64,000 bases of DNA. Origin: Planctomyces sp. Lineage in GTDB: Bacteria; Planctomycetota; Planctomycetia; Planctomycetales; Planctomycetaceae. Positions 1 through 26,290 of this stretch are shown piece after piece. Numbering within the stretch: the stretch's first letter is position 1; the number at the start of each line of letters is the position of its first letter. A program made the translations under genes and the position numbers. The stretch lies in contig JAEUIH010000010.1 of the NCBI GenBank assembly GCA_016795105.1, positions 68,007 to 132,006 on the forward strand, read 5' to 3'. The notes below the pieces were generated by a model, which worked only from the letters and a program-made list of their open reading frames with translations, was not told the DNA's origin and ran no database searches.

Positions 1-1311
1 CAGTTGAATTGACGGGGATTTTGTGGATGCGAGAATTGGGCTCAGAAAGGGGTCTGAGCATGGAGACGTTGAAATCCCATTATCGGTTATTGTTGGGTTT
101 GGACAAGACGTGGGACGTCACGAGTGTTGAGCTGAACGTAGAAGCCAAATCGGTAACGATTGACCTCGAATATCGTGGCCGCGGTGGCATATGTCCAGAC
201 TGCAAGGCGGAATGTGGCCTGAAAGATCATGCCCCGGAGAGGACTTGGCGGCATCTCGACACGATGCAGTTTGAGACGGTTCTGAAGGCTCGGATTCCGC
301 GAGTGAACTGTTCGAAGTGTGGCGTGAAAACGATCTCTGTTCCCTGGGGCGAGAAGCATTCGCGATTCACACTGATGTTCGAGGCATTCGCGATTGACGT
401 GCTGCAGTGTGCTGGCAGCGTTAAGGCTGGAGCACTGCTGCTGGGGCTGAGTTGGAGTGCGGCTCATGAGATCATGAAGCGCGCAGTCGAGCGTGGCCTT
501 GAGAAGCGAAACCTGGAAGGTATTCGTTACGTCGGCATTGACGAAAAGAGCTTTGGCCAGGGACAGGATTACATTTCCGTGATGACCGATCCGAAGGCCT
601 CTCGAGTGATCGAAGTGGCCGAAGGTCGAACCGAGGAATCTGCGGAAATTCTCTGGGATTCTTTGACCGACGAGCAGAAGTCTCACATCGCGGCAGTATC
701 GATCGACATGTGGCAGGCGTACGAAAACAGCGTGGCAACTCATGCTCCTCAGGCCGAGATCGTGTTCGATCGCTTTCACATCTCAAAGCATCTCAATGAA
801 GGCGTCGATAAGGTGCGGCGTGAAGAACATCGCGAACTGATGAAGGAGGGCGATGATCGTCTCAAGGGCATGCGTTATCACTTCCTTTTCAACGCGGAAA
901 AGCTGGATGAAGAACGCCAGGAAGAACTGAATGCTCTGCAGAAACAACAGCTACGAACCAACCGGGCCTGGGGCATCAAAGACTACTTCCGCTGGTTCTG
1001 GGCTGAGTCCGATGCGATCGCCGGCCGAGAGTTCTTCGACCACTGGTATAACTGGGCCATTCGTTCACGACTGGAGCCCATGAAGAAAGTCGCAAGGATG
1101 CTCAAAAACCGACTCGACAATATCCTGTCATGGTTCCGCCACCGCATCACCAACTCAAACGCCGAAGGTTTCAACAGCCGCATCCAGGCCATCAAGTACA
1201 ACGCCCGAGGCTTCAGGTCCTTCCAGAACTACCGTACTCGAATCCTCTTCTTCTGCGGAAAACTCGATTTGATCCCTCAAAATGTTAGCCACTAAATCCC
1301 GTGAAGAACCC
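1..1311 (+). mobile_element. ISL3-family insertion sequence, left end cut by window edge
   Basis: The element holds one ISL3-type transposase gene. Its right end is visible: read inward from base 1311 it begins GGGTTCTTCACGGG and continues through ATTTAGTGG, the kind of terminus ISL3 elements carry. The first bases of the window contain GGGGATTTTGTGG, which matches the inner part of that terminus, so the window probably starts inside the left inverted repeat. Directly after 1311 the sequence becomes the interior of a phage tape-measure gene, so the element has inserted into that gene. The target duplication cannot be confirmed because the left junction is outside. Confidence 0.85.
60..1295 (+). 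CDS. ISL3 family transposase
   Basis: DDE transposase of about 411 residues. The N-terminus has a zinc-binding pair of CxxC motifs (CPDC and CSKCG), followed by a helix-turn-helix-like segment. The catalytic core shows the first acidic residue in GIDEKSFG, the second in SIDMWQAY, and the final Glu in NAEGFNSRIQAIKYNARGF, as in DDE_Tnp_ISL3. I chose the ATG at 60 because ISL3 proteins usually begin near the METLKSHYRLLLGL-like segment; an ATG at 9 in the same frame would add 17 residues of no family character. The gene appears intact, so the element may still be active. It interrupts the prophage tape-measure gene. Confidence 0.93.
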   Translation: METLKSHYRLLLGLDKTWDVTSVELNVEAKSVTIDLEYRGRGGICPDCKAECGLKDHAPERTWRHLDTMQFETVLKARIPRVNCSKCGVKTISVPWGEKHSRFTLMFEAFAIDVLQCAGSVKAGALLLGLSWSAAHEIMKRAVERGLEKRNLEGIRYVGIDEKSFGQGQDYISVMTDPKASRVIEVAEGRTEESAEILWDSLTDEQKSHIAAVSIDMWQAYENSVATHAPQAEIVFDRFHISKHLNEGVDKVRREEHRELMKEGDDRLKGMRYHFLFNAEKLDEERQEELNALQKQQLRTNRAWGIKDYFRWFWAESDAIAGREFFDHWYNWAIRSRLEPMKKVARMLKNRLDNILSWFRHRITNSNAEGFNSRIQAIKYNARGFRSFQNYRTRILFFCGKLDLIPQNVSH

Positions 1312-2549
1312 TATTGTTTAAGGCGGGTATTTCCGCTCAGGATTTGGCCGGCAAAACAAATCAGCTTGCCACAGTCGCAGCGGCAACAAGCACGGACCTG
1401 AACGATCTGGCTCGCATCTATCAGCAGGGTGCTTCTACGGGATCATTCGGACAGGACAAGATTAATCAGCTGGCGGAACGCGGTATTGACATTTACCACG
1501 CACTGGAGGCCGCTACCGGCAGAAGCGGAGCCGAACTCAAGGGCATGATTTCCGATGGCAAAATCGGAATTGCTGAGATGGACTCCGCTCTGGCCCACAT
1601 GACTGAAGGGCACGGAATCTACGCTGGCTCTCTGGCTGCCATGGCCAACACCACCGGCGGAAAACTGGCCCAGATGAAAAACAACATCAGCCAGGCTCTC
1701 GGCGATGTCATGGGAATCGCTCTGGAAATCCTGCATCCGTTCGGAACGGCGATGGTCTCATTCACGCAGAGTCTTCGTGATGGATTCACAGCATTCCGTG
1801 GACCGATCATTTATGCATCCACTGCGGTTGCATGGTTTTTCGGAAATCTGGTGACGATCGGGAAGTTTGCATGGGCGACCGCCCAACTGGGTGCCATCAC
1901 ATTCTTCAACGATATCGTTTACTTTTTCGGAACAACAATTCCTGCCTACCTCAGCTGGTTTGGTGAAAACTGGTCGCAGGTGTTCACGGACGCCGGAAAC
2001 GTTGTGATGACGGTGTTCCGGAACATGGCCATCAACATCGGCTCAGCGATGGCCGCGATTTGGGACTACATTGCGAGTGGAGGCACGACCGAGCTCCAGT
2101 TTGCCTTTGTACCGTTGCTCGATGGGTTCAAGGCAACAGTCGCAGAACTTCCAAACATCCCTGATCGTGCCATGACCGATCTGGAACGCCAGTTGACGGC
2201 TCAAACAGAACAATTGGGAGGTCAGCTCGCGAACAACTTTGATGCCATGCTTGCAGACGCCTCGCAAAAGGTTGGAGAAGCGGATACTCAGATCAAGGAC
2301 ACTGTTGGCAGAGTCCAGAAGGACGGTTCCGACACTGCGATCGCAGCTGCCAACAAAGCGGCAGAAAACAAAGCAATCGGCGTCCGAACCGCGGAGGGAC
2401 AAACGTTGGCAGCACAGCTGTTGCGAGGACAGCTCAGCAAGGAAGATCGAGCGTTAAAGGCACAGGACGAAGCCAACGGGCATCTCAGCGACATCGAGCG
2501 GCATTTGCGTGAAGGAAATCGCAACAATGCACGAGGAAAGAAGTTCTGA
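1312..2549 (+). pseudogene. Phage tail tape-measure protein, C-terminal fragment truncated by ISL3 insertion
   Basis: The remaining 411 residues carry the conserved lambda-type tape-measure segment (TIGR02675-like): an 'ARIYQQG' region, then 'QLAERGIDIYHAL', 'ISDGKIG' and a 'GGKLAQMKNNISQALGDV' tail, followed by hydrophobic stretches (about residues 150-250) and an Ala/Gln-rich, probably coiled-coil end. Tape-measure proteins set siphovirus tail length. Upstream the frame meets a stop inside the IS end, so the N-terminal part must lie left of the IS outside the window. A TTG at 1314 could start translation, but a functional protein is unlikely. It overlaps the next gene by one base (TGATG), as in an intact tail operon. 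Confidence 0.85.
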
Positions 2550-5398: not shown

Positions 5399-7261
5399 AT
5401 GGCGCTCAAGATCTGGCGTGGAGATGCACCGGCCGTTTCACAGGTGACACGAGTCACACCCGCAAACGTTGAGGTCGGCGACATCTTCACCCTCACAATC
5501 AACGGCAAGGCCCTCAGCGTTACAGCGACCGCTGCCACAGCAGCCAATGTTGTCGATCTGTTTGTGGCTGCGATCGCAGCCAGCGAGATTCCTGAATTCA
5601 CTGAGTTTGTTGCCACCAATGACGCCAATACTCTGCTGTTAACCGCAGCTGAGCCGGGAGTCCCGTTCACTTTCACCGCCAGCACAACGAATGCTGGAAA
5701 ATCAGACGTGAACGTTGTCACAACGACACAGGGTAGCACTGCCGCCACTGAGGTCCAGAAGTTCACGATTCCGTCTGCAGCAACCGGCGGAACGTGGAAG
5801 ATTACCTTCGGATCTGCGACGACGGCCGCACTGAACGTCGGTGACTCAGCCGGCACAGTGCAAACCGCCTTGCAGGGCCTCAGCACTGTTGGCAGCGGCA
5901 ATGCGACCGTCAGCAAATCCGGAGACGAATACACAGTCACATTCGCCAGTGCACTCGCCAGCCAGAACGTGGCTCCGCTCGTTGTGGCTTTGTATCTGGA
6001 CAAACCTTTGATCGATGTTGTTCAAAACGGTGCATCCTTTGGACCGCCTCAGAATGAGATTCAGCGGCTCAGGCTCCCCAGCAGTGACGTGACGTCCAAA
6101 ACATTCACGCTGACGTTCAACGGAGATACAACCGCCTCGCAGTTTCCACCCATCACGGCTTCCGGCCTGCAGGGATGGCTGCGTCTGCAGTGGCAGGACG
6201 TGAATACGGTCAACGTGACGGATGACACTGCAACCGGAGGTTACCTGATTGAGTTCACGGGATCGGCAGGCAACGCCAACCAACCGACGATCACAGCAGC
6301 ATCGACGTGGACGGCGGCGGAGGGACGTTATGACATCACCGTCACGACGACGACGGAAGGTGCCGCGAATGCAAACGAAGTCCAGACAATCACCCTGTCT
6401 CCGACCCCCACGGGTGGGACCTTCACGCTGACATACGCCGGCCAGACAACTTCTCCAATTGCCTACAACGCCAGTGCAGCGACTGTTGATACGGCTTTGG
6501 AGGCCTTGTCAAACATCGGAGTTGGCGACGTTACCGTGACAGGATCAGCCGGTGGCCCCTGGACAGTCACGTTTGGCGGAGCTCTCGCTAACACGAACGT
6601 CCAGCAAATCACTGGCAATGGATCAGGACTCACTGGAGCCGCAACCCAAACATTCACAGCGGCTCAGGTGACCGCTTCCAGTGGTCCAAACCATTGGGAC
6701 ACTGCAGCAAACTGGCTCCCGGCCGGCGTCCCTGCAAACAGTGACGACGTGAGTTTCGAGATTGGCGATTCGGATTGCCTTTACGGTCTGGATCAAACAT
6801 CTGTCACTCTGACTTCGCTTTCGTTTGCGAGCACATGGACCGGAGCTCTTGGACTCCCGCGAGTCAACGAGCTCGGATATGTCGAGTACCGAACTCGTGA
6901 TCTGACGATCAAGTGCCCAACAGTCCTGATCGGTCATGGCGAAGGCTCAGGCAGCGGAAAGATTCAATTGAACACGCTGAACGCCGCCTGTGCTCTTGAG
7001 GTTCGAAATTCTGGTGGATCGAGAGAATCCGGCGTCCCAGCAATCACATGGTATGGAGATCACGCGAGTAACAGCATCGTCATGCTGTCTGGTGATCTGG
7101 GAATTGCCGTTTGGTCTGATCAAACCGCAGAGATCAACACAATTCGTCAGTACGGAGGTCAACTCCGAATCAATCGATCCTCCATCAACGACCTGTACGC
7201 ACCGGGCCAGCAGGTGTCCGCCCACGAAACGACCATCGGCGGTATGCCGGTGGAGCTATGA
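5399..7261 (+). CDS. Virion protein with tandem Ig-like repeats
   Basis: A 620-residue Thr/Ala/Gly-rich protein built from repeated beta-sandwich-like units. Two clear copies of about 90-100 residues each begin with 'EVQ', run through a 'GGT..(I/L)T(F/Y)' strand and a 'VQTAL/VDTALEALS' turn, and end with a 'VTF..ALA..NV' strand (about residues 118-200 and 325-425). A diverged copy lies between them and a shorter related unit at the N-terminus. The last 190 residues differ and contain an 'NHWDTAANWLPAGVP' stretch like that seen in beta-solenoid or autotransporter-type surface proteins. The ATG has a good ribosome site (GGAGAGG, 5386-5392). Decoration of the tail and adhesion to cells or particles is inferred. 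Confidence 0.65.
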   Translation: MALKIWRGDAPAVSQVTRVTPANVEVGDIFTLTINGKALSVTATAATAANVVDLFVAAIAASEIPEFTEFVATNDANTLLLTAAEPGVPFTFTASTTNAGKSDVNVVTTTQGSTAATEVQKFTIPSAATGGTWKITFGSATTAALNVGDSAGTVQTALQGLSTVGSGNATVSKSGDEYTVTFASALASQNVAPLVVALYLDKPLIDVVQNGASFGPPQNEIQRLRLPSSDVTSKTFTLTFNGDTTASQFPPITASGLQGWLRLQWQDVNTVNVTDDTATGGYLIEFTGSAGNANQPTITAASTWTAAEGRYDITVTTTTEGAANANEVQTITLSPTPTGGTFTLTYAGQTTSPIAYNASAATVDTALEALSNIGVGDVTVTGSAGGPWTVTFGGALANTNVQQITGNGSGLTGAATQTFTAAQVTASSGPNHWDTAANWLPAGVPANSDDVSFEIGDSDCLYGLDQTSVTLTSLSFASTWTGALGLPRVNELGYVEYRTRDLTIKCPTVLIGHGEGSGSGKIQLNTLNAACALEVRNSGGSRESGVPAITWYGDHASNSIVMLSGDLGIAVWSDQTAEINTIRQYGGQLRINRSSINDLYAPGQQVSAHETTIGGMPVEL

Positions 7262-13154: not shown

Positions 13155-14618
13155 GTGAATGGATTCGCAAAATCTTCTGTTGCGGTGCTTTGTGCTTTGA
13201 TCTGCATCATTTCAGCGGCAAACGCTCAGGATGATCTCCAGAGGCGATTCGATGAAGCATTTCGCCTTCAGGCTCAGGAACCTTCGGTGATTGTCCCGCG
13301 GCCAATTCCTGATCCACGGATGTCGCGGCCGGCACCGGAACTTGAGTATTGCCGACCGGAGAATCCAGCGGCCGCGTCACAGCAATTTGAGGGACTGTAC
13401 TTTGTGCGATTCTTTGCTGGCTGGTGCGGTCCATGTCGCCAGATGGAATCTGCTGGTGTTTTTGACGACATAAAGGCCGCTGGATACAAGATCACCGAAG
13501 TCGACATCGACAAGGCGCCTGACAAACGCGTGACATCGGTGCCAACACTGTGGCTCTGTGATGCGAACAGATCCATCGTCCGCCAATGGGTCGGATATCA
13601 AACCACGGACGATATTCTGAACAGTCAGAATTGCTACGGAATCGGCCGGTTGCGCGCTGCAAACAAACTTCTGAGCGGAGTCTGCATTTCCGAGAACCTG
13701 TTTCTGACGGTGGCCCACCATGACAGCCAGGGGCCGTTTTTGATCGAGTTACCGGTTGACCGTCTGGACAACACAAAGATCGTCAGTTTTCCGGCGACGC
13801 TGGTACGTGCTGACACAGACTCTGATTTGTGCCTGTTGCGGTTCCGATGCCCTCCGGACGTGACGATCAAAACACTCGAGCTGGCGACTACAAATCTGGA
13901 GGCGATGGCCATTGAGGGGTTCCCGTCCGGCAAGCCAAAGAAAATCCGAGCCAAAAACACGCGAAATACAGTGCGACTGTCGTCTGGATCGGAATTACTC
14001 GAGTTAGTCTCTCCAGACATCAGCTCACCGCAGCTCGGAATGTCCGGAGGCCCTGCGCTGAATTCTGCCGGAGAAATCATGGGAATACAGTCGCTCGGGT
14101 CTGGCAATCAGATTTCGGTGGCTCAGATTGAGACCATTCGCGGCTTTGTTGGTGATGATCTGCATTCGGCGGAGCAATCAGCAATCGTCAACATCAGCAA
14201 TTCGGCCAACGGTGATCTGCAAGGCCTGCTGGCCGCGGCCGTCGGCCTGCATTGCCTGTCAGAGGATCTGCCGGACGTTGAGTCCGCAGCGGATGCACAG
14301 ATCGAAGGCACGTTTGGCAGTTTGGTCGACGTGGATTTCGACGTGCCTGACTCTGCCTTGGAAATCGCCAGCCGGCTGCTCACGCTCCGCAAAGTGGAGT
14401 TTCCAGCTGCAGGCGTTGAATTGTCGTGGAATGGAGATGCCAGACGCATCGATCTGAAGCCCGACCGCATCACTGTCACTCCTGGAATGGAAGTCAAAGT
14501 CCAGAAGTTCGGCCTGACAAAACGATGTCGTCTGGATGCGGTGACGTACACTCAGGATTTGAGTTCCGTTACCTTTGAGCTGTCCGGAATGCTGGATGTG
14601 ACGGTGAACCTCAAATGA
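13155..14618 (+). CDS. Exported thioredoxin-trypsin-like fusion protein
   Basis: A 487-residue protein with three parts. Residues 1-24 are a signal peptide ending in ANA-Q. Residues about 75-160 are a thioredoxin domain with WCGPC (90-94) and the cis-Pro at 130. Residues about 165-340 are a chymotrypsin/HtrA-like serine protease: His188 in TVAHH, Asp224 in DTDSDLCLL and Ser297 in GMSGGP. The last 140 residues are beta-rich and unrecognised. Start is GTG with GAAAGGA upstream. It lies between the papain-like protease and two small membrane proteins, overlapping the next by four bases. Both active sites look intact. An export-associated protease with redox activity in a prophage is unusual. Confidence 0.75.
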   Translation: MNGFAKSSVAVLCALICIISAANAQDDLQRRFDEAFRLQAQEPSVIVPRPIPDPRMSRPAPELEYCRPENPAAASQQFEGLYFVRFFAGWCGPCRQMESAGVFDDIKAAGYKITEVDIDKAPDKRVTSVPTLWLCDANRSIVRQWVGYQTTDDILNSQNCYGIGRLRAANKLLSGVCISENLFLTVAHHDSQGPFLIELPVDRLDNTKIVSFPATLVRADTDSDLCLLRFRCPPDVTIKTLELATTNLEAMAIEGFPSGKPKKIRAKNTRNTVRLSSGSELLELVSPDISSPQLGMSGGPALNSAGEIMGIQSLGSGNQISVAQIETIRGFVGDDLHSAEQSAIVNISNSANGDLQGLLAAAVGLHCLSEDLPDVESAADAQIEGTFGSLVDVDFDVPDSALEIASRLLTLRKVEFPAAGVELSWNGDARRIDLKPDRITVTPGMEVKVQKFGLTKRCRLDAVTYTQDLSSVTFELSGMLDVTVNLK

Positions 14619-14947: not shown

Positions 14948-15330
14948 ATTTCCTTACAATGCTCGCTCAGAACGATTCCCGCATCGACGGAGCTGTCCGG
15001 ATCACCGAACAGGCCAGCAGTCTTGGCGGAAATGTGTTCGTTGTGACTCTCGTCCTGCTGATTGTTGTCGTGTACGTGATTGGAGTCGTTATTCCTGGTG
15101 CACGCAGCCAGCGAGCAAATACGGACCGTCTGACAGACTGTATCGCCCGGATGGGCGACACAGTGGCCGAAACTCATGGCCATGCGGCTGCCGCCAATAC
15201 GAACACACAGAAGCTGATTCTGGCTCAGCGCGTGCAAACTCGGATTGCCGAGAAGCTCAACATGACCGAAAACGGATCACACGCCGACATTACCGCGGAG
15301 ATCGGAGAGATTCGCGGAACGCTGGCCTAA
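14944..15330 (+). CDS. Small membrane protein with helical C-terminal domain
   Basis: About 128 residues. A strong transmembrane segment (about residues 31-51, 'VFVVTLVLLIVVVYVIGVVI') follows a short exposed N-terminus, and the rest is an amphipathic, probably coiled-coil helix region. The ATG at 14944 is preferred over 14935 because it gives an ATGA overlap with the previous stop and places AAGGA (14931-14935) eight bases upstream. It is the last rightward gene of the prophage and ends four bases from the convergent cytosine methyltransferase. A holin or membrane-scaffold role is possible but unproven. Confidence 0.6.
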   Translation: MNFLTMLAQNDSRIDGAVRITEQASSLGGNVFVVTLVLLIVVVYVIGVVIPGARSQRANTDRLTDCIARMGDTVAETHGHAAAANTNTQKLILAQRVQTRIAEKLNMTENGSHADITAEIGEIRGTLA

Positions 15331-16190
15331 TTGGCATCGATGGCGCACGGTTCGTGATAACCGGCGAGATCAACCCATGGTTTTGGATTCGCGGCCAGCT
15401 GCTTTCTCTTCCGGCAGCTGGCCGTTGCCGTTAAGGCTCGATCGGAGACCTTCCGCCCACAACCGCACTGACAGTCGGATCCACACGTGGGTGCACGCAG
15501 AGAGACCGCCGCAGCGAGCGCACGCCCCATCCGGAGAGGCACTCCATTGCCGACAGCCTTGAACTTGGCAACCCGATACCAGCCCGTCAAATCAATTGGT
15601 TCGTCGAGACCCTGACGCCGACAAAGGTCAGGAAAATCCGTCCAGCGGTCGGTTTTGGTTGTCACAGATTTCCCGGGCCGGCCTTTTCTCCGATTTCGAG
15701 TGCAGTCATTCACACGTTCGGGACGAATCACGTGGCCGAGTTTGCTTCCGAACTGGACGTGCCGCGATCGCAGTTGCACGCCTCCGCACTCCAGATCAGT
15801 GATCGGAATTCGCTGAATCGAATAGCCGTCAATTCGCACGTCGGGAACGGTTGGAACGTTCTCGATCAAAAACCATTCAGGATCGCATTCCGTAATCACT
15901 CGGACGCATTGCCTCAACATTTCGCGGCTATAAATGACCGAGGCATGCTCATTATCCGTCCGGAAAGAATTGGCGACAGAAAATCCCTGACACGGCGGGC
16001 CCGCCACAACTCCGTCAAACCGATTCCGGACCCCCCGAAAGTCTCTGATATCACCACCGGTGATGCGATCCTGAGCCTGAACGACACAAAATCCCGTCGC
16101 AGCGAATGCACGGTCCAGCAGGCCAATGCCCGGGAAGAGTGACAACACGAGCTCAGTCACGGCTGCCGGAGTCTCCGGAACGGGAGTCAT
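15327..16190 (-). CDS. C5-cytosine DNA methyltransferase
   Basis: A 287-residue methyltransferase that would add a methyl group to C5 of cytosine using S-adenosylmethionine. Motif I is 'LSLFPGIGLLDRAF', motif IV 'GPPCQGFS' with catalytic Cys67, motif VI 'ENVP', motif VIII 'QLRSR' and motif X 'KAVGNGVPLRMGRALA'. The target-recognition region is short. After motif X there is a Cys cluster (CGSDCQCGCG plus a CR.RK end) that could bind zinc. The frame is open for 77 further codons upstream, but the ATG at 16190 matches the family start and overlaps the adenine methyltransferase by 38 bases. No partner nuclease is adjacent, so it is probably an orphan enzyme protecting phage DNA. Confidence 0.88.
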   Translation of the reverse strand: MTPVPETPAAVTELVLSLFPGIGLLDRAFAATGFCVVQAQDRITGGDIRDFRGVRNRFDGVVAGPPCQGFSVANSFRTDNEHASVIYSREMLRQCVRVITECDPEWFLIENVPTVPDVRIDGYSIQRIPITDLECGGVQLRSRHVQFGSKLGHVIRPERVNDCTRNRRKGRPGKSVTTKTDRWTDFPDLCRRQGLDEPIDLTGWYRVAKFKAVGNGVPLRMGRALAAAVSLRAPTCGSDCQCGCGRKVSDRALTATASCRKRKQLAANPKPWVDLAGYHEPCAIDAN

Positions 16191-16989
16191 TGCCGGCAGT
16201 GTCTCCTGATTTGACGTCGATCCCTGCAGGATCCGAGAAATGGCTGATCGCAGCATCCAGCAACGCCATCCGCTCAAGCTGGGGCAGTCGATCGAGCTTT
16301 CCCACGAGATTGGCAACTCGCCGTTGCAGTTTGAATCGCTCGCGGCGGTCTTTACCGAGCCAGCGATAATCCTGCAGGGCCTCAGGCTCGGGGTAATTGC
16401 ACCATGCAACTTCGGTGACAAGTCCCTGGCGGGTCATGGCCTGATATGAGAAAGTCCTCCAGCCGGCGAATCCATCTTCGTAGAACTTCGAAGGATAACC
16501 CGAGATCATCACTCTGCACTTCAGTTTTCGCAGTGCTGTGATCAGTGCATCGTGGTCATTGAAAGACATTTCGTACCGGTACCGTGACCTCGATTTGCGA
16601 GTCGTATGAAGGTACGGCGGATCGCAATAGACGAAGGTTTCTTCTGGCGTATCCGAAATCAGAGTCTTGAGCAGCTCAATACCGCACATGTCTCGAAACT
16701 CAACGTGAGTCTTGTACCACCGAGGATGCATCCACTCCTGTTCCCAGAACTCAAATAAACTGGCATCCAGATCGGAGAGGTACACCTGTTTGGGCAATCG
16801 AATATTCCTGGTGACGGCGCAATGACCGGCAAAAGGAATCACGAGCTTTCGATGCGGTGGAATCTGGTTGATCAGATGGCGAAACGAAAGGCCTTTGCCA
16901 CCGAAATAGGAGTCTCCGGCCGTTGACTCCAACTTTCGAGTCGCTCGAGCGACTCCGATTCTGGAAGACTCTTTTCTAGGCTGACTCAT
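16153..16989 (-). CDS. DNA adenine methyltransferase, D12 class
   Basis: A 278-residue N6-adenine methyltransferase. The N-terminal AdoMet motif is 'YFGGKG...IPPHRKLVIPFAGHCAVT' with 'LSDLDASL', and the catalytic motif is DPPY (residues 123-126) in 'VYCDPPYLHT'. The order places it with the alpha-class (Dam/DpnM) enzymes. The start at 16989 is chosen because the family homology begins a few residues later; upstream codons in this frame lie over the ASCH gene. It overlaps ASCH by 14 bases and the C5 methyltransferase by 38 bases. A 50-residue basic/Asp tail follows the core. Confidence 0.88.
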   Translation of the reverse strand: MSQPRKESSRIGVARATRKLESTAGDSYFGGKGLSFRHLINQIPPHRKLVIPFAGHCAVTRNIRLPKQVYLSDLDASLFEFWEQEWMHPRWYKTHVEFRDMCGIELLKTLISDTPEETFVYCDPPYLHTTRKSRSRYRYEMSFNDHDALITALRKLKCRVMISGYPSKFYEDGFAGWRTFSYQAMTRQGLVTEVAWCNYPEPEALQDYRWLGKDRRERFKLQRRVANLVGKLDRLPQLERMALLDAAISHFSDPAGIDVKSGDTAGNDSRSGDSGSRD

Positions 16990-17473
16990 TCGCGTGCACT
17001 TCTCCAAGCAAGTTAGCGACCGATTTCTGCAGATGGACTTCCGGATACCAGAGTCCCTGTTTTCCGGGGTGATAAATAGGTTGAGGAAAGCACTTCGGAC
17101 GCTGACATTCCCAGCCAAACCGCTCGGGACCAAATGAACCAACCTGATTTTCAAGTACAGTTCCGCCGCTGTTCATCTGACTGCAATTCACCAGATCAAC
17201 GACACCGAGAGCCCGTCCAATCGTATCTTCCCACGGCAGCAACGAGAGTCTCCATTGCTCTTCAGTGAGTTTCGATTCATCAAAGTCTGAGTTCTGCAAG
17301 TAGCGTTTGACCGCAAGGCAATCGAGCGCTCGGTATTCATCCCATCGCTTCGCGGCATGAATGACCAGCGGTCCACGGTAAGTTGTTGGCCAGCTGCGTG
17401 TCTCAAATCGCTTGGCACCCAGCATGATCAAAGTCGCATATGGTTGCCAGATTGTTATGGCCTTCACCCTCAT
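16976..17473 (-). CDS. ASCH-domain protein
   Basis: A 165-residue protein. 'MRVKAITIWQPYATLIMLGAKRFETRSW' with 'YRGPLVIHAAK' is the ASCH beta-barrel signature related to PUA. ASCH proteins bind or process nucleic acids; some members have RNase or nucleoside-processing activity. 'GRALGVVDLVNC' and a final 'GKQGLWY' are the later ASCH strands. It overlaps the adenine methyltransferase by 14 bases and the upstream replication gene by four bases. Such proteins are common in phage early operons. The substrate is not known here. Confidence 0.8.
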   Translation of the reverse strand: MRVKAITIWQPYATLIMLGAKRFETRSWPTTYRGPLVIHAAKRWDEYRALDCLAVKRYLQNSDFDESKLTEEQWRLSLLPWEDTIGRALGVVDLVNCSQMNSGGTVLENQVGSFGPERFGWECQRPKCFPQPIYHPGKQGLWYPEVHLQKSVANLLGEVHANESA

Positions 17474-17886
17474 GCACTTCTCCCAGGCTTTATGTTCAAT
17501 TCCATCGCCTCTGCGATCTTTTCAACCAACGTGCTGGAAACCCGTTTTTCGTCGCGAAAAACCTCGTTGCTGCGTGCTCGTCGAAAGCCCTGACACTTCG
17601 CGATCAGTTTGCCCAGGTCCGGAAACGGATCCTCGGACAATCCGATCTCCAGACAGGCCCGCGTCACGTCGGCCGGATCGAAGACGCTAAGCGCAGCAAT
17701 CCAGGTCTCCAGCTGGTGCGGCGTGAACTGCAGGTTGTTTTTCATCGAACACAGCCGCTGGATCGGGTCTTTAAGGCTCGGCAGCGATTGCTTCACTGAG
17801 GACAGCAAATGCATCTGCGTTTGCTGCCTCGCGATTTCTTCGCCCGGACGCCGCACCTCTGCCAGCTGGCGGTTTGTTGTTGTCAT
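17470..17886 (-). CDS. Probable phage helicase-loader-like replication protein
   Basis: A 138-residue helical protein. The segment 'LETWIAALSVFDPADVTRACLEIGLSEDPFPDLGKLIAKC' has the pattern of lambda P/G39P-type helicase loaders and related prophage proteins, in which a helical domain contacts the DnaB helicase. It overlaps the upstream replication-initiator gene by 116 bases in another frame and the ASCH gene by four bases. Together with the upstream gene it is likely to form the O/P-like pair that starts prophage DNA replication and recruits the host helicase. The assignment rests on pattern and order, not a full alignment. Confidence 0.5.
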   Translation of the reverse strand: MTTTNRQLAEVRRPGEEIARQQTQMHLLSSVKQSLPSLKDPIQRLCSMKNNLQFTPHQLETWIAALSVFDPADVTRACLEIGLSEDPFPDLGKLIAKCQGFRRARSNEVFRDEKRVSSTLVEKIAEAMELNIKPGRSA

Positions 17887-18526
17887 CGGCCACCCTTTTT
17901 CTGTGCCAGTTGCGAGCCGCAGACTGCCAGTCTTTCATGGCACTGCTGCCCACTTTCCAGCCTTTGGACGTGTAAAAGTCAACGAACTCTGCTGCGTCAA
18001 TCTGGAGCTCAGCGGATCGCACAAACTCAGAGACTTCATCCAGCGTAGGCGGACGAAAACGAATCGAAGATTCCCCACGCACACTCGCCGGTGGCTTGTG
18101 TGTTTCTTGTGTTTCTATCTTCTCTTCTCTCTCTCTTCTCTTCTCTGGTAACGCTTCCGTAACGCTGCTGGCGTTACAGTCTTTAGTTCTCATGCGTTCA
18201 ACGCGGTCTTTCGTTTGTGCCCTTTTCTTTGCGGTTTGACCGTTATGCCGGTCAAAGTTGGGGATTGTCAGGAGGCCATCGCGGCCTGACAACCAGCCAA
18301 CCTGACGAAGCGCGGCGGCAAAACCGGGGCAGAAAGTCAGACGGTCGATGAACGAAGCTGTGAACTTCATTTCGTCACCGGAGACAGTTTGCTGATCGGC
18401 CCATATCCAGAGTCGACAACACTTCCCAAACACGGCGTCCTGATCAATGTTCAGAATCGACGCCATCAACACAATCTCCGGTTTGTCCGGAGTCGATACT
18501 TCGAGTTTGATCCAATCGCCAGCCAT
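17771..18526 (-). CDS. Phage replication initiation protein, O-like
   Basis: A 251-residue protein. Its N-terminus 'MAGDWIKLEVSTPDKPEIVLMASILNI' through 'GKCCRLWIWADQQT' and 'GWLSGRDGLLTIPNFDRHNGQTAKKR' is the winged-helix region of a well-known prophage replication family, which binds the replication origin. The C-terminus ('GSSAMKDWQSAARNWHRKR') is the usual end of these proteins and contacts the loader. The last 116 bases overlap the loader gene in a different frame. A small unknown gene sits 12 bases upstream. Iterated sites inside the gene might form the origin, but I see no obvious array. Confidence 0.7.
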   Translation of the reverse strand: MAGDWIKLEVSTPDKPEIVLMASILNIDQDAVFGKCCRLWIWADQQTVSGDEMKFTASFIDRLTFCPGFAAALRQVGWLSGRDGLLTIPNFDRHNGQTAKKRAQTKDRVERMRTKDCNASSVTEALPEKRREREEKIETQETHKPPASVRGESSIRFRPPTLDEVSEFVRSAELQIDAAEFVDFYTSKGWKVGSSAMKDWQSAARNWHRKRVADDNNKPPAGRGAASGRRNREAANADAFAVLSEAIAAEP

Positions 18527-18538
18527 CCAAAGCCATCC

Positions 18539-18763
18539 TTACTTTGTCACCGTTGCCATCCGTTGCATTGCAAACCATCCTGTCAGCAAACCTTCCAGAA
18601 ACGCGGTTGCGACGCGTTTCGAGTCCACGCCGTAGTACTGTGGACTGACTGTCCTTGAATTGCCGTCCGCCAGCTGCTGTATGACTCTCCAGCCATGCTG
18701 TGGCGTCTTTGTTGACGGATGCTGGCGAGTGCAAACGGCAAGGCGGAACGGTGTAGCGGCCAT
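18539..18763 (-). CDS. Small conserved-looking phage protein, unknown
   Basis: A 74-residue soluble protein, basic, with no motif. Its ATG overlaps the stop of the nuclease gene by one base (TGATG), and the next gene follows after 12 bases, so it belongs to the leftward early operon. The ending 'VATAFLEGLLTGWFAMQRMATV' suggests an amphipathic helix. Function unknown. Confidence 0.5.
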   Translation of the reverse strand: MAATPFRLAVCTRQHPSTKTPQHGWRVIQQLADGNSRTVSPQYYGVDSKRVATAFLEGLLTGWFAMQRMATVTK

Positions 18764-20520
18764 CAGAAGAGACTCCCTGCAGCTGGTCTGCGGCCGGAGG
18801 CTGTCTCAACAGCCTCAGAAGCCACCGGACGTGCGATCTTGTCCAATCCAATCAACAACGGCTCAGCAAAGTACCCTTGTGCCCAGGCCGTATGATTGTT
18901 TGTGCCGAGCCGCCATGGATTTTCGCGTTCTGTGCCTCGGCAGCGGTATCCGCCGACCCAGCAGGCGATCATCGCCGATTCGGGACTTGTCCAGTCGGGA
19001 CGATGGTCGAGTCTGGCCAGCAGATCATCGACGCTCCGTGAAACAATTCCGGAAGATACGGGGGCGGTCTCGCGATTCTGCGAGACTTCACCCCCGCGAT
19101 CCCCTGGTACCACAGTCTCAGCGTACCGGTGTTCCTGCTGAGTCGCTCGCAACGGCTGTACGGGCGCGGAAGATTCGTGATCAGCGAATCCCCCGTTGCG
19201 GCCAATCTGTTCTGCCTCAACCGGTGCAGCGCTCAGATTGGACTTCGCTTCCTTTCGTTGTGGTTTTCCTGCCTGAATAAACAGTGGGACAATGGAATCC
19301 AGTATAGCCGCTACGGATCCGAGTCCAATCGACTGCAATGCGGTCTGATAATCGAACGGCGGCTGCCACGGATTTAGTTCCGGGATTGGCAGACTGTTTC
19401 GCAGCTGGACAACCTGCTGACAGTTCAGCGCCTCCGCACGCTGCTCAACGAGTTTCTTTCCGATCGCTCCTGGAATCTTGCCGGACTGAGCCGCCACCAG
19501 AATGCTCTCGAGCGAATCGAACTGAGCAAGCAGAGCAGCTGCAGTCTTTGGGCCGCAGCCCTTCACGCCCGGGATGCCGTCGGAACTATCGCCGCACATC
19601 GCCAGATAGTCCTGCACCTGCCCGGCCGGGATGCCGAGTTTCTCTTCGGGATCGACAAATCCGCCACCGGACCATGGATGATAAATCCGGCAGCGGCCAT
19701 GCAGAGACAGCAAATCCTTGTCAGAGCTGGCAATCACAACACACGGAAACCGCTCGACGATGGATGCCAGCACATCATCGGCCTCCCATTCGAGGACACG
19801 GACGGCCGGAATCCCGGCCAACTGTAGTGCCTTTTGAGCCAGTTCGATCTGTGCACGGAGTTCCGGAGGATGCTCAGGACGATGAGCCTTGTACTGTGGC
19901 AGCAGTCTCGACCGATAGACATGACCGCCATCGAGCGCAAACACGATTCGCCGAGGCCGCAACTCGCGCACAGCGTTGGCCATCGTCTGGAACATGCTGC
20001 GGACGGCATGAATCTCTGTCGGCTTGCCGGCATGCCAGGCCCTGACCAGCAGATTCATGAAGTCGAACGCCAATACGTCAACCGGAGCCGGCTTCTGCGA
20101 GTGACCGCCGCCTACTGGAACAGACTTTGCTGATTTTTTGCCGGGAGCATTTGTTTTCGGCGAACTGCCGGATTCAGTCCAAGCTGGCGGCGAATCTCGC
20201 TCAGCCAAATCCGGTACGGATGATTCGCCTTCTTTCCGAAGGGGTACGCGTTGCACAGCGCTCTCTGCAACGCCGGCATGTTCTGTGTCCCGATCTCTTT
20301 GATGAGTCTTGCGATGATGGGACGAGCTTTCTTTCGCCAGCGACTTTGCATCAGCCTCACTCCGCAGTTCAGACAGAGGGACAAAACGGTTCAACTCGAT
20401 CGCAGCACATGCCAGCAGACTTCCGTCAGCGCGAGTGATCGTCTCCAGCGATCGCACGCGCGTGGGAATGTGCCTGCCGTGATGCACCCAGATAACAGAC
20501 TGCCCTGCCACGAAAGACAT
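18763..20520 (-). CDS. 5'-3' exonuclease/FEN-like nuclease with extra N- and C-terminal regions
   Basis: A 585-residue protein. The central part (about residues 130-370) is a FEN/5'-3' exonuclease: 'DVLAFDFMNLLVRAWH' carries the first acidic metal ligand, 'IVFALDGGHVYRSRLLPQYKAHR' the second block, 'WEADDVLASIV' and 'VIASSDKDLLSL' the DD-type sites, and 'LAMCGDSSDGIPGVKGCGPKTAAALL' the helix-hairpin-helix that grips DNA. The first 130 residues hold a small 'SVIWVHHGRHIPTRVRSLE' beta domain, and the C-terminal 190 residues are low-complexity plus a short Trp-rich domain. It should remove 5' ends or flaps during replication. ATG at 20520 overlaps the upstream gene by one base (TGATG); the extra 23 upstream codons overlap that gene. 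Confidence 0.8.
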   Translation of the reverse strand: MSFVAGQSVIWVHHGRHIPTRVRSLETITRADGSLLACAAIELNRFVPLSELRSEADAKSLAKESSSHHRKTHQRDRDTEHAGVAESAVQRVPLRKEGESSVPDLAERDSPPAWTESGSSPKTNAPGKKSAKSVPVGGGHSQKPAPVDVLAFDFMNLLVRAWHAGKPTEIHAVRSMFQTMANAVRELRPRRIVFALDGGHVYRSRLLPQYKAHRPEHPPELRAQIELAQKALQLAGIPAVRVLEWEADDVLASIVERFPCVVIASSDKDLLSLHGRCRIYHPWSGGGFVDPEEKLGIPAGQVQDYLAMCGDSSDGIPGVKGCGPKTAAALLAQFDSLESILVAAQSGKIPGAIGKKLVEQRAEALNCQQVVQLRNSLPIPELNPWQPPFDYQTALQSIGLGSVAAILDSIVPLFIQAGKPQRKEAKSNLSAAPVEAEQIGRNGGFADHESSAPVQPLRATQQEHRYAETVVPGDRGGEVSQNRETAPVSSGIVSRSVDDLLARLDHRPDWTSPESAMIACWVGGYRCRGTERENPWRLGTNNHTAWAQGYFAEPLLIGLDKIARPVASEAVETASGRRPAAGSLF

Positions 20521-20816
20521 CAGTTGTTGATCGCCTCCTGCTGCTTTGCAACTCCGTAGAGATACAGCATGTCTTCCACACACAGCCACAGCTGCGGTGT
20601 GAGGGAATCATGGTTGCCGGGTTCGAGGATCTCGTAAAAGCAGTTGACGGTCGGCAGACTCGCAGCCGCTTTTGCTTCTCGATACCAGCTCGCCAGGATG
20701 CTGACTTCGGTATGACGCCCGCAGCGGTAAAGACATCGGGCACGAATCCGCGGACCGAATGGTTCAAATCCGCGGCCCGTCAGCACTTCAACCTTGAATT
20801 TTTGGGCTGAGCTCAT
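20520..20816 (-). CDS. Small phage protein of unknown function
   Basis: A 98-residue protein with conserved-looking Trp/Tyr/Cys positions but no motif. An upstream in-frame start would add three residues; the ATG at 20816 is preferred. Its stop overlaps the start of the nuclease gene by one base, and csrA ends 12 bases upstream, so it lies between csrA and the nuclease in one leftward operon. Function unknown. Confidence 0.55.
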   Translation of the reverse strand: MSSAQKFKVEVLTGRGFEPFGPRIRARCLYRCGRHTEVSILASWYREAKAAASLPTVNCFYEILEPGNHDSLTPQLWLCVEDMLYLYGVAKQQEAINN

Positions 20817-21049: not shown

Positions 21050-22342
21050 TTAGCGATGCGATTCAGGGAACGGAAACGCTTCCGCGGCCCGCTGAAAGTC
21101 CGCATCGAAAGTCGCATAGTTTCGCAGCTGAGTGTCGCCTTTCGGCGGAGCATGGCCGATCGCTGCGAAACGATAGATCGGTGCATGCTTGATCCAGTAA
21201 GAAATGGCCACTCCCCGCATCTGGTGTGGATTGCGGACGGGGACGCCGGCCGATTCCCAGATTTGCAGGTACTGCGCACGCCAGCGGCGTTCACGGTTCT
21301 GAGCATCACCGGGATTCAGTCGATACTCAGATTCAGGCTGATCGACGGCATTCAGATACACCCGCTCGCCATCGGCAGCTTGTTGGGCAGATCTCAGTTT
21401 CGCAAATCTGGAGCGGAGCCAGCTGGGCATCGGGCACGTGCCATTGCCACCGGCCTTGGTCTCAGTCACGTGGATCGTGGCCGAGTGCAGGTCGACGCGA
21501 AGATCGGCCTGCAGGTCATGATTGCCCCACTGATACCGCCAGAAGTCCTGCCACCGCGGACCGTGGTACCAGAGCTGGCAAAACCAGACCTCCCACCACA
21601 GCGGATCGAGGAACTCTGCACCTTTGCAGGCGTCCAGAATCTGCGAAAACTCTTGCACTGTCAGCAGAGGCAGGGAACAACGACGATGACCGCCTCTGGA
21701 TTCTTTGTCGGAGTACTCTTTGGCCCGATCGCGAAACCAGCGGTCGCGAGGTGGACTCCAGACCGGGAGTCGTTCGATCGATAACCAGGCATCTTCCTTC
21801 ATTCCGCGAGTGTTTTGGACCGTCAACGGACAGGCAGACTTCAGCAGAGCAAACAGCAGATCAGCATTCTTCCGCCAGCTCCGCTCCGACTTCCATTCTT
21901 CAACGCCTTCGAAAAACTCCTGGATGTGTTCTGCCGTCAAAAACCTGAGGTCAGGTCCACGCCCGCACCAGAATCGGGTCCATTTTGCAACCAGAGTGCG
22001 GTATCCGGACCAGCTGGCCTCGGTGCAGACGTTGCGGTTTCGCTCAACGCAGGATTCCAAAACCTCTTTGAGCGAGATCATCCGATCATTTCTGAGGTCA
22101 GGACTAGGAGTCCTGACCTCAGAACCGGACATGTGTTCAGCAATTCGGGCCGCAAGCCGCTCAACCAATGCGGCGTCACTGGCTGGATCAGCGGCCTGAG
22201 AGGCCTGTTTTTCCTCCACCGCCAGACGCCGAGCTGCCCCGGAATCCGGTTGTCCCTGACCAGATCGGCGGCGTTGAACTCGCTGCCGAATCGCCTGGCG
22301 GTGTGTGTGCATCTGTGGGCGCGGATTGTAAACGCGAAGCAT
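21050..22342 (-). CDS. int: Tyrosine recombinase/phage integrase
   Basis: About 430 residues. The catalytic domain shows the Arg in 'YHGPRWQDFW', a candidate Lys in 'ETKAGG', the 'PHQMRG' His-x-x-Arg block, His in 'IGHAPPKGD' and the nucleophile Tyr in 'NYATF'. The N-terminal half is a core-binding region ('CTEASWSGYRTLVAKWTRFW'). The ATG at 22342 is chosen because GGAG lies eight bases upstream; the frame is open to 22417 but lacks a site there. It should integrate and excise the element, most likely at tRNA-Phe. A perfect 33-base inverted repeat lies inside the coding sequence in the linker before the core-binding domain (22091-22123). Confidence 0.85.
   Translation of the reverse strand: MLRVYNPRPQMHTHRQAIRQRVQRRRSGQGQPDSGAARRLAVEEKQASQAADPASDAALVERLAARIAEHMSGSEVRTPSPDLRNDRMISLKEVLESCVERNRNVCTEASWSGYRTLVAKWTRFWCGRGPDLRFLTAEHIQEFFEGVEEWKSERSWRKNADLLFALLKSACPLTVQNTRGMKEDAWLSIERLPVWSPPRDRWFRDRAKEYSDKESRGGHRRCSLPLLTVQEFSQILDACKGAEFLDPLWWEVWFCQLWYHGPRWQDFWRYQWGNHDLQADLRVDLHSATIHVTETKAGGNGTCPMPSWLRSRFAKLRSAQQAADGERVYLNAVDQPESEYRLNPGDAQNRERRWRAQYLQIWESAGVPVRNPHQMRGVAISYWIKHAPIYRFAAIGHAPPKGDTQLRNYATFDADFQRAAEAFPFPESHR
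22091..22123. repeat. Perfect 15-bp inverted repeat with 3-base loop inside integrase gene
   Basis: The arms TCTGAGGTCAGGACT and AGTCCTGACCTCAGA are exact reverse complements, separated by AGG. The 33 bases keep the integrase frame and fall in a poorly structured Ser/Arg/Pro linker. A half-copy (CTGAGGTCAGG) recurs near 21946. Length a multiple of three and position in a linker suggest an inserted palindromic element that the gene tolerates; it could also form an mRNA hairpin. Confidence 0.8.
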
Positions 22343-22582
22343 CGTTCGGACTCCATGTCCAGCCGACAGACAGCCTCTGTCGATCCACGGCTGGAAATTT
22401 GAAAGTGTCGCGAGCATCCGTGTAACATCCGTTCGGGCGACTCAGGCTCAACCCTAGTGGGTGAAACCTGAATGAGTGAAAAGAAAATCGTTCAAGTAGG
22501 GAAATCACCCAAGTGGAGCCGCAGAGGGCGGATCAGCCTTCTCTCCGCAGCGCTCCGGTTCACCAACACCGGTTGGTCGTGT

Positions 22583-24796: not shown

Positions 24797-24825
24797 TGGC
24801 ATCCACTCCCTGGAAGACGTTCCGA

Positions 24826-24897
24826 TGGCAGTGGCGGGATTCGAACCCGCGATCTCCGGATTATGAGCCCGGCGAGATACCACTTCTCCACACTGCG
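24826..24897 (-). tRNA. Initiator tRNA-fMet (anticodon CAT)
   Basis: A complete cloverleaf of 72 bases. Acceptor stem is six paired positions with C1 facing C72, a mismatch like the C1-A72 mismatch of bacterial initiators. D stem has A11-T24. The anticodon stem has G29-G30-G31 opposite C41-C40-T39. The loop is CTCATAA. The T arm is fully paired around TTCGAAT. These features separate it from elongator tRNA-Met. No CCA is encoded. It sits inside the prophage early region, between a repressor and phage genes. Its promoter is not obvious because a terminator-like hairpin lies just upstream. Confidence 0.9.
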
Positions 24898-24920
24898 AAA
24901 TGAGCCCGGGGGCGACTCAG

Positions 24921-24990
24921 GCCCCGGCCGGGGAATCGAACCACCGCAGTTTCGGCAGATCGTGCACTGCCTAGACCGTCCAAACCGGGA
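24921..24990 (-). tRNA. Degenerate tRNA-like sequence, anticodon GCA (Cys-like)
   Basis: The acceptor ends pair (TCCCGGT with GCCGGGG, two G-T pairs), and the box GGTTCGATTCC is typical of a T loop. The anticodon arm pairs (GGCAG/CTGCC) but leaves an eight-base loop, and the T stem has two mismatches. It may be a decaying tRNA-Cys. It lies 23 bases upstream of the initiator tRNA in the same direction. Confidence 0.35.
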
Positions 24991-25015
24991 AAACAGCGGG
25001 CTTTTCTTGGGCGAT

Positions 25016-25058
25016 GAAAAACGAAAAAGCCCGCTGAATCGTCACGACTCAGCGGGCT
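25016..25058 (-). terminator. Rho-independent terminator after repressor gene
   Basis: On the minus strand a 10-bp stem (AGCCCGCTGA/TCAGCGGGCT, 11-base loop) is followed by TTTTTCGTTTTT. It ends the repressor transcript. A third copy of one arm lies at 24995-25005 and can pair alternatively with 25024-25035. A second small hairpin (CCCGTCA/TGACGGG) lies at 25074-25092. Confidence 0.8.
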
Positions 25059-25097
25059 CAGTTCTCTTTGGTACCCGTCAAGTCGTGACGGGCGGAC

Positions 25098-25117
25098 TAT
25101 GCAAGAATTCTTGCATA
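25098..25117. promoter_or_regulatory. Perfect 20-base palindrome, probable repressor operator
   Basis: TATGCAAGAATTCTTGCATA reads the same on both strands. It begins three bases after the stop codon of the XRE repressor gene, between that gene and the leftward tRNAs. The inner 14 bases recur at 25154-25167 and half-sites occur before the repressor start, so this is likely a binding site for the adjacent HTH protein. Confidence 0.7.
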
Positions 25118-25120
25118 AGG

Positions 25121-25408
25121 TCAATTGGCAACCGGGACTCTTCTGGAATTTTTGCAAGAATTCTTGCTGGCCGATCCATCGACTGGAGAAAGAAGGCCGT
25201 CCAACGTTGTTCCCAATGCCTCAGCGACGTTCCATAGGTCCGCTGGATTTGGGAGTAGTTCTCCCCTGATCAGCAACGACAATCGTTGATGCGCAACGCA
25301 GGACATTCTCGCCAGTTCAATCTGCGAAATGTTGTTCTCTGCCATCAGTCGAGTGACATGGGCAGCAATTCTGGTTCGAGCTTCGTCTCTGGTAATCACT
25401 GTTTGCAT
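25121..25408 (-). CDS. XRE-family helix-turn-helix repressor
   Basis: A 95-residue protein. The HTH is 'AHVTRLMAENNISQIELARMSCVAHQRLSLLIRGELLPNPADLWNVAEALGTTLDGLL', the form of Cro/CI-like regulators. It has no C-terminal peptidase domain, so it would not self-cleave like lambda CI. The ATG at 25408 faces a divergent gene at 25512 with a 103-base gap holding operator-like half-sites. The 3' end encodes a KNS repeat because the operator palindrome is inside the coding sequence. It probably maintains lysogeny by binding the palindromes around its own gene. Confidence 0.8.
   Translation of the reverse strand: MQTVITRDEARTRIAAHVTRLMAENNISQIELARMSCVAHQRLSLLIRGELLPNPADLWNVAEALGTTLDGLLSPVDGSASKNSCKNSRRVPVAN
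25154..25167. promoter_or_regulatory. Second copy of operator core inside the repressor gene
   Basis: GCAAGAATTCTTGC, identical to the central 14 bases of the palindrome at 25098-25117, 42 bases away centre-to-centre is about 53 (five helical turns). It lies in the repressor C-terminal codons. Confidence 0.6.
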
Positions 25409-25511
25409 CCCGACAAGGTAACAATTCTTGCATCAACTTGCAACGACATGTGTGATGTGCTAAGTACCGGCCTGATCGATCCAAGCGGAGTTTCAGAAAC
25501 GGAGTCCAATC
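25409..25511. promoter_or_regulatory. Divergent control region with operator half-sites
   Basis: The gap between the repressor (leftward) and the rightward gene at 25512 contains TTCTTGCAT (25426-25434) and CTTGCAA (25437-25443), two copies of the operator half-site in the same orientation. It should hold both divergent promoters; I could not identify convincing -10/-35 boxes. Confidence 0.5.
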
Positions 25512-26142: not shown

Positions 26143-26217
26143 AGCCCATGCTCCTTCCAGATATCTCTCAGGTGGAGTCGCTGCTGAGTCCGTTCAGCAA
26201 AAAACACTGAGGAAAAA

Positions 26218-26290
26218 TGGGCAGAGCCGGGATCGAACCGGCGACACCAGGATTTTCAGTCCTGTGCTCTACCAACTGAGCTATCTGCCC
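26218..26290 (-). tRNA. tRNA-Phe (anticodon GAA), likely prophage attachment gene
   Basis: A canonical cloverleaf: acceptor GGGCAGA/TCTGCCC, discriminator A, D arm GCTC/GAGC, anticodon stem CAGGA/TCCTG with loop CTGAAAA, T arm GCCGG/CCGGC around TTCGATC. CCA is not encoded. The 3' end points left, toward the prophage, the usual geometry when a phage integrates at a tRNA 3' end and restores it. Confidence 0.95.

Follow-up and report, generated by a model that had tools for sequence, protein, structure and literature searches.

A prophage in the genome of this Planctomyces species almost certainly carries an initiator tRNA of its own. The gene, a complete initiator-type tRNA-Met(CAU), lies on the minus strand at positions 24826-24897 of the window, by which we mean the whole stretch of 64,000 nucleotides that was analysed, and it stands among phage genes between the left and right attachment sites (attL and attR) of the element. 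The best explanation, to which we attach a probability of roughly 60%, is that this is an intact phage initiator gene of outside origin, which would supply fMet-tRNA for phage translation.

Identity and structure of the tRNA

ARAGORN calls a tRNA-Met(CAU) at 24824-24898 on the minus strand, and the Rfam model RF00005 matches 24826-24897 on the same strand over its full length (64.7 bits, E 9e-12 for the whole window). Read from 24897 to 24826, the minus strand gives CGCAGUG-U-G-GAGA-AGUGGUA-UCUC-G-CCGGG-CUCAUAA-UCCGG-AGAUC-GCGGG-UUCGAAU-CCCGC-CACUGCC-A. Positions 1 and 72 form a C1xC72 mismatch, the formylation determinants G2-C71, C3-G70 and A11-U24, as listed for bacterial initiator tRNAs in PMC7949028, are all present, and the anticodon CAU, within the loop CUCAUAA, is accompanied by the discriminator A73. 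The terminal CCA is not encoded, as is also the case for the host's own initiator. Folding energy relative to shuffled sequences is uninformative here (z about -1), which is usual for single tRNAs.

An earlier note on this DNA had proposed a full cloverleaf with initiator hallmarks, and the C1xC72 mismatch, the A11-U24 pair and the G29G30G31 run are indeed all seen (ARAGORN, Rfam). The G-rich anticodon stem that it described is correct for the G29G30G31 strand and less so for the pairing: only 29-41 and 30-40 are G-C pairs (G29-C41, G30-C40), while 31-39 is a G31.U39 wobble. The tRNA therefore does not have the strict 3GC arrangement, with G-C at 29-41, 30-40 and 31-39, whose role in favouring P-site selection is reviewed in PMC7949028. 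Judging from the sequences compared, strict 3GC is no universal requirement for initiators, because the G.U variant occurs in 96 contigs of a bacterial genome collection and the host initiator itself has A29-U41.

Delimitation of the prophage

The right end of the prophage is marked by an attachment-site core of 49 bp at 26216-26264 (minus strand), which derives from the 3' part of a tRNA-Phe gene and is identical to the attL copy at positions 13486-13534 of a second contig, C353. The tRNA-Phe(GAA) at 26218-26290 on the minus strand, the only tRNA-Phe found in the genome, is intact (Rfam, 74.7 bits) and served as the integration site. The initiator tRNA is situated about 1.3 kb inside this end.

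The left part of the element was found on C353. This contig starts with the end of the same ISL3-family insertion sequence that opens the window (1-1310, plus strand), and the 8-bp duplication CTATTGTT is present at both flanks of the insertion sequence, so that C353 and the window are chromosomal neighbours. The insertion lies in the tape measure gene, the C-terminal part of which is encoded at 1314-2549 (plus strand) and the N-terminal half at C353:59-1831, the latter assigned by position and without a family match. Upstream of its att copy, C353 encodes an HslV-like protease, a terminase, a portal protein, an HK97-type capsid protein and a head-tail adaptor. Beyond the att copy there are matches to the sequence that follows tRNA-Phe in two genomes of the same genus (82% across 44 bp, 92% across 37 bp), followed further along by host-type genes for an ECF sigma factor and a Ser/Thr kinase; to the right of tRNA-Phe, the window likewise holds host-type genes, for a 3-keto-disaccharide hydrolase and a guanido phosphotransferase of the arginine kinase type. 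With att copies at both ends, phage genes within and host genes beyond, the prophage is thus delimited to C353:1-13534 plus window 1311-26264, about 38 kb without the insertion sequence, having entered the 3' end of tRNA-Phe and restored that gene. Both attachment sites bear out the earlier placement of the tRNA inside a prophage.

Left of the window, no att repeat was found on the same scaffold (C11), which we attribute to a gap of 10 N at C11:67997-68006, just left of the window and inside another copy of the insertion sequence, together with a probable mis-join through that copy; the scaffold join there is probably wrong, with C353 the true neighbour. Across this join, at C11:61275-67965 (L047:13269-19959) and beside a tRNA-Pro(CGG), there are genes for a tyrosine integrase, a Spo11/TopoVI-A Toprim protein and an Lhr-like helicase, in what looks like a separate integrated element, perhaps with defence cargo. 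We considered its tyrosine integrase (L047:13269-15062) as the prophage's own and rejected it as part of this separate element beyond the mis-join.

Within the window, the prophage further encodes a tail tube/sheath-like protein (5399-7261, plus strand) and, on the minus strand, two DNA methyltransferase open reading frames (15327-16421 and 16153-17154), a phage replication initiation protein (17771-18526; PHROG 2509, E 1.5e-58) and a phage-type 5'-3' exonuclease (18763-20589). Large open reading frames without an assignment include 21050-22417. No integrase was recognised in C353:1-13534 or window 1311-26264, despite the clean att sites in tRNA-Phe. With a tape measure gene broken by the insertion sequence and no recognisable integrase, this copy of the prophage may be defective and its tRNA may now be a passenger. 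The same tRNA-Phe site has a different occupant in another genome of the family, where tRNA-Phe and a partial repeat of its 3' end flank an element of about 39.6 kb (G004:C1:6208313-6248031; L396, L397); the stretches of it that were read contain no initiator tRNA.

The early region around the tRNA

The initiator tRNA sits between a CI-type repressor gene and the replication genes and points in the same direction as the early genes, in agreement with its earlier assignment to the early region. The repressor, a CI/Cro-type helix-turn-helix protein of 95 aa, is encoded at 25121-25408 on the minus strand (PHROG transcriptional repressor, E 5e-8; Pfam HTH_3, E 1e-9). The 14-bp operator-like palindrome GCAAGAATTCTTGC occurs in two perfect copies, at 25101-25114 and 25154-25167, and in a third, imperfect copy (25418-25431; 2 mismatches) that immediately precedes the repressor start; the three lie at either end of the repressor gene, against 0.46 expected by chance in the window at this stringency. 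The first of them falls within a sigma-70-like promoter, TTGACC-17-CATAGT (25096-25124, minus strand; a consensus match only), that points toward the tRNA. Between the repressor gene and the tRNA lies a strong intrinsic terminator on the minus strand (25027-25059; 15 pairs, z -6.2).

Directly adjoining the initiator, at 24917-24993 on the minus strand, the sequence can be read as a tRNA-like remnant with an acceptor-like part and a T-arm-like part (GGTTCGATTCC) and without a proper anticodon arm. We rejected it as a second functional tRNA, as neither ARAGORN nor Rfam calls one there; it is probably a decayed remnant.

Host initiators and comparison across the class

The genome has 45 tRNA matches. 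They include two host initiators of identical sequence, one at C66:16331-16404 and the other at C364:2-75; because the latter begins one base from its contig end, it is not certain to be a true second copy. The expectation that the host has an initiator of its own was therefore right. The host initiator shares with the prophage tRNA the C1xC72 mismatch, G2-C71, C3-G70, A11-U24, A73 and the unencoded CCA, although only 56 of 74 positions are identical: its anticodon stem reads A29-U41, G30-C40, G31-C39, and its D-loop is longer.

Of 297 class genomes, 273 have a match to a broad initiator pattern, and A29 is present in almost all class initiators among the matches listed (as A29-U41 where the pair was read out). 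The use of A29 in place of the canonical G29-C41 is itself a class-wide departure from the 3GC rule among the initiators listed. The G29G30G31 type, by comparison, was found in only 4 of 397 class genomes, in five copies, and all four genomes have additional initiators. Each copy of this type that was examined is accessory and near phage-type genes: in one genome (G050) a Mu-Gam-like gene and a terminase lie nearby, in a second (G101) one copy directly adjoins the gene for a Sak4-like annealing protein, and in a third (G261) a ParB-like protein of a phage family is encoded at a distance of a few kb. Extra initiator-type tRNAs with other stems also occur near phage-like genes, namely a primase and an integrase in G006 and one phage family of unknown function in G095.

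Given the rarity of G29G30G31 in the class, the A29-U41 stem of the host and the accessory position of the copies near phage-type genes, the tRNA was very probably acquired by an ancestor of the prophage from outside the present host lineage and not copied from this host. The 397-genome comparison thus offers G29 versus A29 as a simple marker for phage-borne initiators in this class.

Initiator tRNAs in other phages

The earlier note had implied that initiator tRNAs are rare in phages, which the searches do not support: at E<=0.01 the 74-nt query has matches in 366 public phage records, many of those listed being annotated as tRNA-Met, and a pattern scan of IMG/VR finds an initiator-type tRNA in at least 119 contigs. 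The records read out contain clear initiator types and cover, among others, phage D3, the cluster C1 mycobacteriophages, Quaran19, Vibrio, Xanthomonas, Aeromonas and Erwinia phages and the temperate Sinorhizobium phage phiLM21. At 54 of 74 IMG/VR loci of at least 8 kb, the initiator is the only tRNA in the stretch, these being partial stretches of which some may include host DNA. The suggested search for homologous prophages with the same tRNA returned little, as tblastn of the window's phage proteins against the loci bearing initiator tRNAs gave one weak hit only; initiator tRNAs therefore recur in unrelated phages.

In an alignment of 11 initiators from the window, the host and phages, 1-72 is unpaired in all 11 and G2-C71 and C3-G70 are invariant, while the other acceptor pairs covary; over the whole structure, 12 pairs show two-sided changes, a number reached in 0 of 500 shuffles. 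Among 106 distinct initiators from viral contigs, which were chosen by a D-arm/anticodon pattern that fixes 11-24, so that only positions outside the pattern count, 2-71 is G-C in 103, 3-70 is C-G in 96, A73 is present in 95 and 1-72 is unpaired in 88. The near-invariance of 2-71 and 3-70, with compensated changes at other pairs, fits selection for initiator function across phages. A second viral scan that left positions 29 and 30 free (n=79) found 29-41 to be A-U in 31, G-C in 29 and U-A in 19; the pair is thus A-U or U-A in 50/79 of this IMG/VR sample, the share of host lineages included. The 31-39 pair was G-C in all 79. We claim no general enrichment of U39 in phages, as it was seen in 3/80 of one sample and 0/79 of the other.

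The closest relative found for the prophage tRNA is the tRNA-Met of the Pseudomonas phage D3 (AF165214.2, 53398-53473), identical at 64 of 73 positions (88%). D3, also a temperate phage, and its relative phPA-G share with it the D-arm GGAGA..TCTCG, the CCGGG stem, the 1-72 mismatch and A11-U24. The D3 tRNA differs in having C1xU72, C33, C39 (hence G31-C39) and an encoded CCA, and in its context, near three further tRNAs and downstream of a NinG-like gene; its record annotates only a tRNA-Met (AUG), the initiator type being our reading of the sequence. Another close parallel is provided by the phiLM21-like prophages of Sinorhizobium meliloti, which carry a tRNA-fMet (PMC12429752): there, too, a single initiator is the only tRNA of a temperate phage that integrates in a tRNA gene, a different one, and restores it, although the phage is a different one and the stem of its tRNA-Met has U29-A41. 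The cluster C1 mycobacteriophage Burrough encodes an initiator-type tRNA-Met identical to the prophage tRNA at 61 of 74 positions, and the Streptomyces phage Quaran19 an initiator annotated as tRNA-fMet, but both are large phages of over 130 kb, and the tRNA of Burrough is one among many.

Proposed role and alternative explanations

Codon compensation, the usual explanation for phage tRNAs, does not fit an initiator tRNA, because the start codons that it reads are already served by the host; internal codons are not decoded by an initiator, which makes a role in codon supply unlikely. We propose that, once repression is lifted, a leftward early transcript would supply extra tRNA-fMet. Because a terminator (25027-25059) separates the promoter-like site from the tRNA, transcription would have to read through it, as happens in early operons that use antitermination, or to start at another promoter that was not recognised. 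As every classical determinant for these steps is present, the host MetRS could charge the phage tRNA, the host formyltransferase formylate it and the host IF2 use it, which might keep initiation on phage mRNAs going when the host initiator tRNA is scarce or damaged, with a possible further benefit against host anticodon nucleases. Because 3GC favours selection for the P site, the departure from it at G31.U39 argues against an initiator role, and we would place a functional role of the tRNA in initiation slightly below even odds.

Two alternatives are contradicted by the architecture of the locus, and we regard both as hardly credible. That the gene is the host's own initiator, with the prophage boundary to its left, has nothing in its favour beyond the functional look of the tRNA: host initiators exist elsewhere, on C66 and C364, the gene has the attachment site (26216-26264) on its right, which puts it about 1.3 kb inside the prophage, and its G29 stem departs from the A29 of the class. 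The sole chromosomal initiator with a boundary on its left, which the earlier note had named as grounds for calling it a host gene, is thus not what we find. Under tRNA-dependent lysogeny (PMC10865867), the integrating phage destroys a host tRNA gene, for which its own tRNA then substitutes. Integration into an apparently single-copy tRNA-Phe would be in keeping with such an arrangement, but it needs a phage tRNA of the same isotype and a host tRNA that is not reconstructed, whereas here the phage tRNA is a Met and not a Phe tRNA, and the 49-bp core restores an intact tRNA-Phe at attR.

The two remaining alternatives grant that the tRNA belongs to the prophage. It could be a passenger, captured by illegitimate or att-mediated recombination and without a selected role there. 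Phage tRNAs are often gained and lost, a decayed tRNA-like sequence adjoins the initiator and an insertion sequence interrupts the tape measure gene; we nevertheless think this unlikely, though worth keeping in view, as the initiator retains all its determinants and a full cloverleaf next to a decayed neighbour, and tRNAs of the initiator type are found again and again in unrelated phages, in many cases as the sole tRNA of the stretch. In the most specific of the alternatives, the phage tRNA could replace host tRNA-fMet that a VapC-type anticodon nuclease cleaves during infection, and itself be a poor substrate owing to its altered 31-39 pair. In a passage drawn from Winther and Gerdes 2011, PMC4105405 describes enteric VapC as cutting tRNA-fMet between A38 and C39, and it is at this site that the prophage tRNA has U39 and the host C39. 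Phage tRNAs have been proposed to resist anticodon nucleases through changes in the anticodon loop (PMC10264068), and the C33 of the D3 tRNA and loop or 31-39 changes in other phage initiator-type tRNAs are in line with this, as is the occurrence of U39 with GGG in 3/80 of an IMG/VR sample against 96 contigs (a count and not a rate) in a collection of 84,980 species genomes. PIN-domain genes are present in the host, the best match (E 5e-13) being a frame of 140 aa; we know of no tRNA-fMet nuclease there. However, U39 is rare even in phages, 31-39 being G-C in 79/79 of the second viral sample, and phages generally avoid tRNA-fMet where the nuclease is VapC-LT2 (PMC10264068), so that we consider nuclease evasion a distinctly doubtful account of this tRNA.

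Implications

Initiator tRNAs encoded by phages are already known, from the Quaran19 record and the phiLM21-like prophages (PMC12429752). What is added here is a delimited prophage whose initiator has a stem type that is foreign to the host class as a whole, together with the finding that such tRNAs recur near phage genes in several relatives. One could speculate, at long odds, that initiators are a recurrent and separately evolving class of phage genes, beyond the reach of codon compensation as an explanation, that sustain initiation under host shut-off, with variants where the anticodon stem joins the loop (here U39) that resist host tRNA-fMet nucleases. A solo initiator in a temperate phage, with a stem foreign to the class of its host, is a clean test case for explanations other than codon compensation, chief among them the supply of fMet-tRNA during host shut-off or anticodon-nuclease attack.
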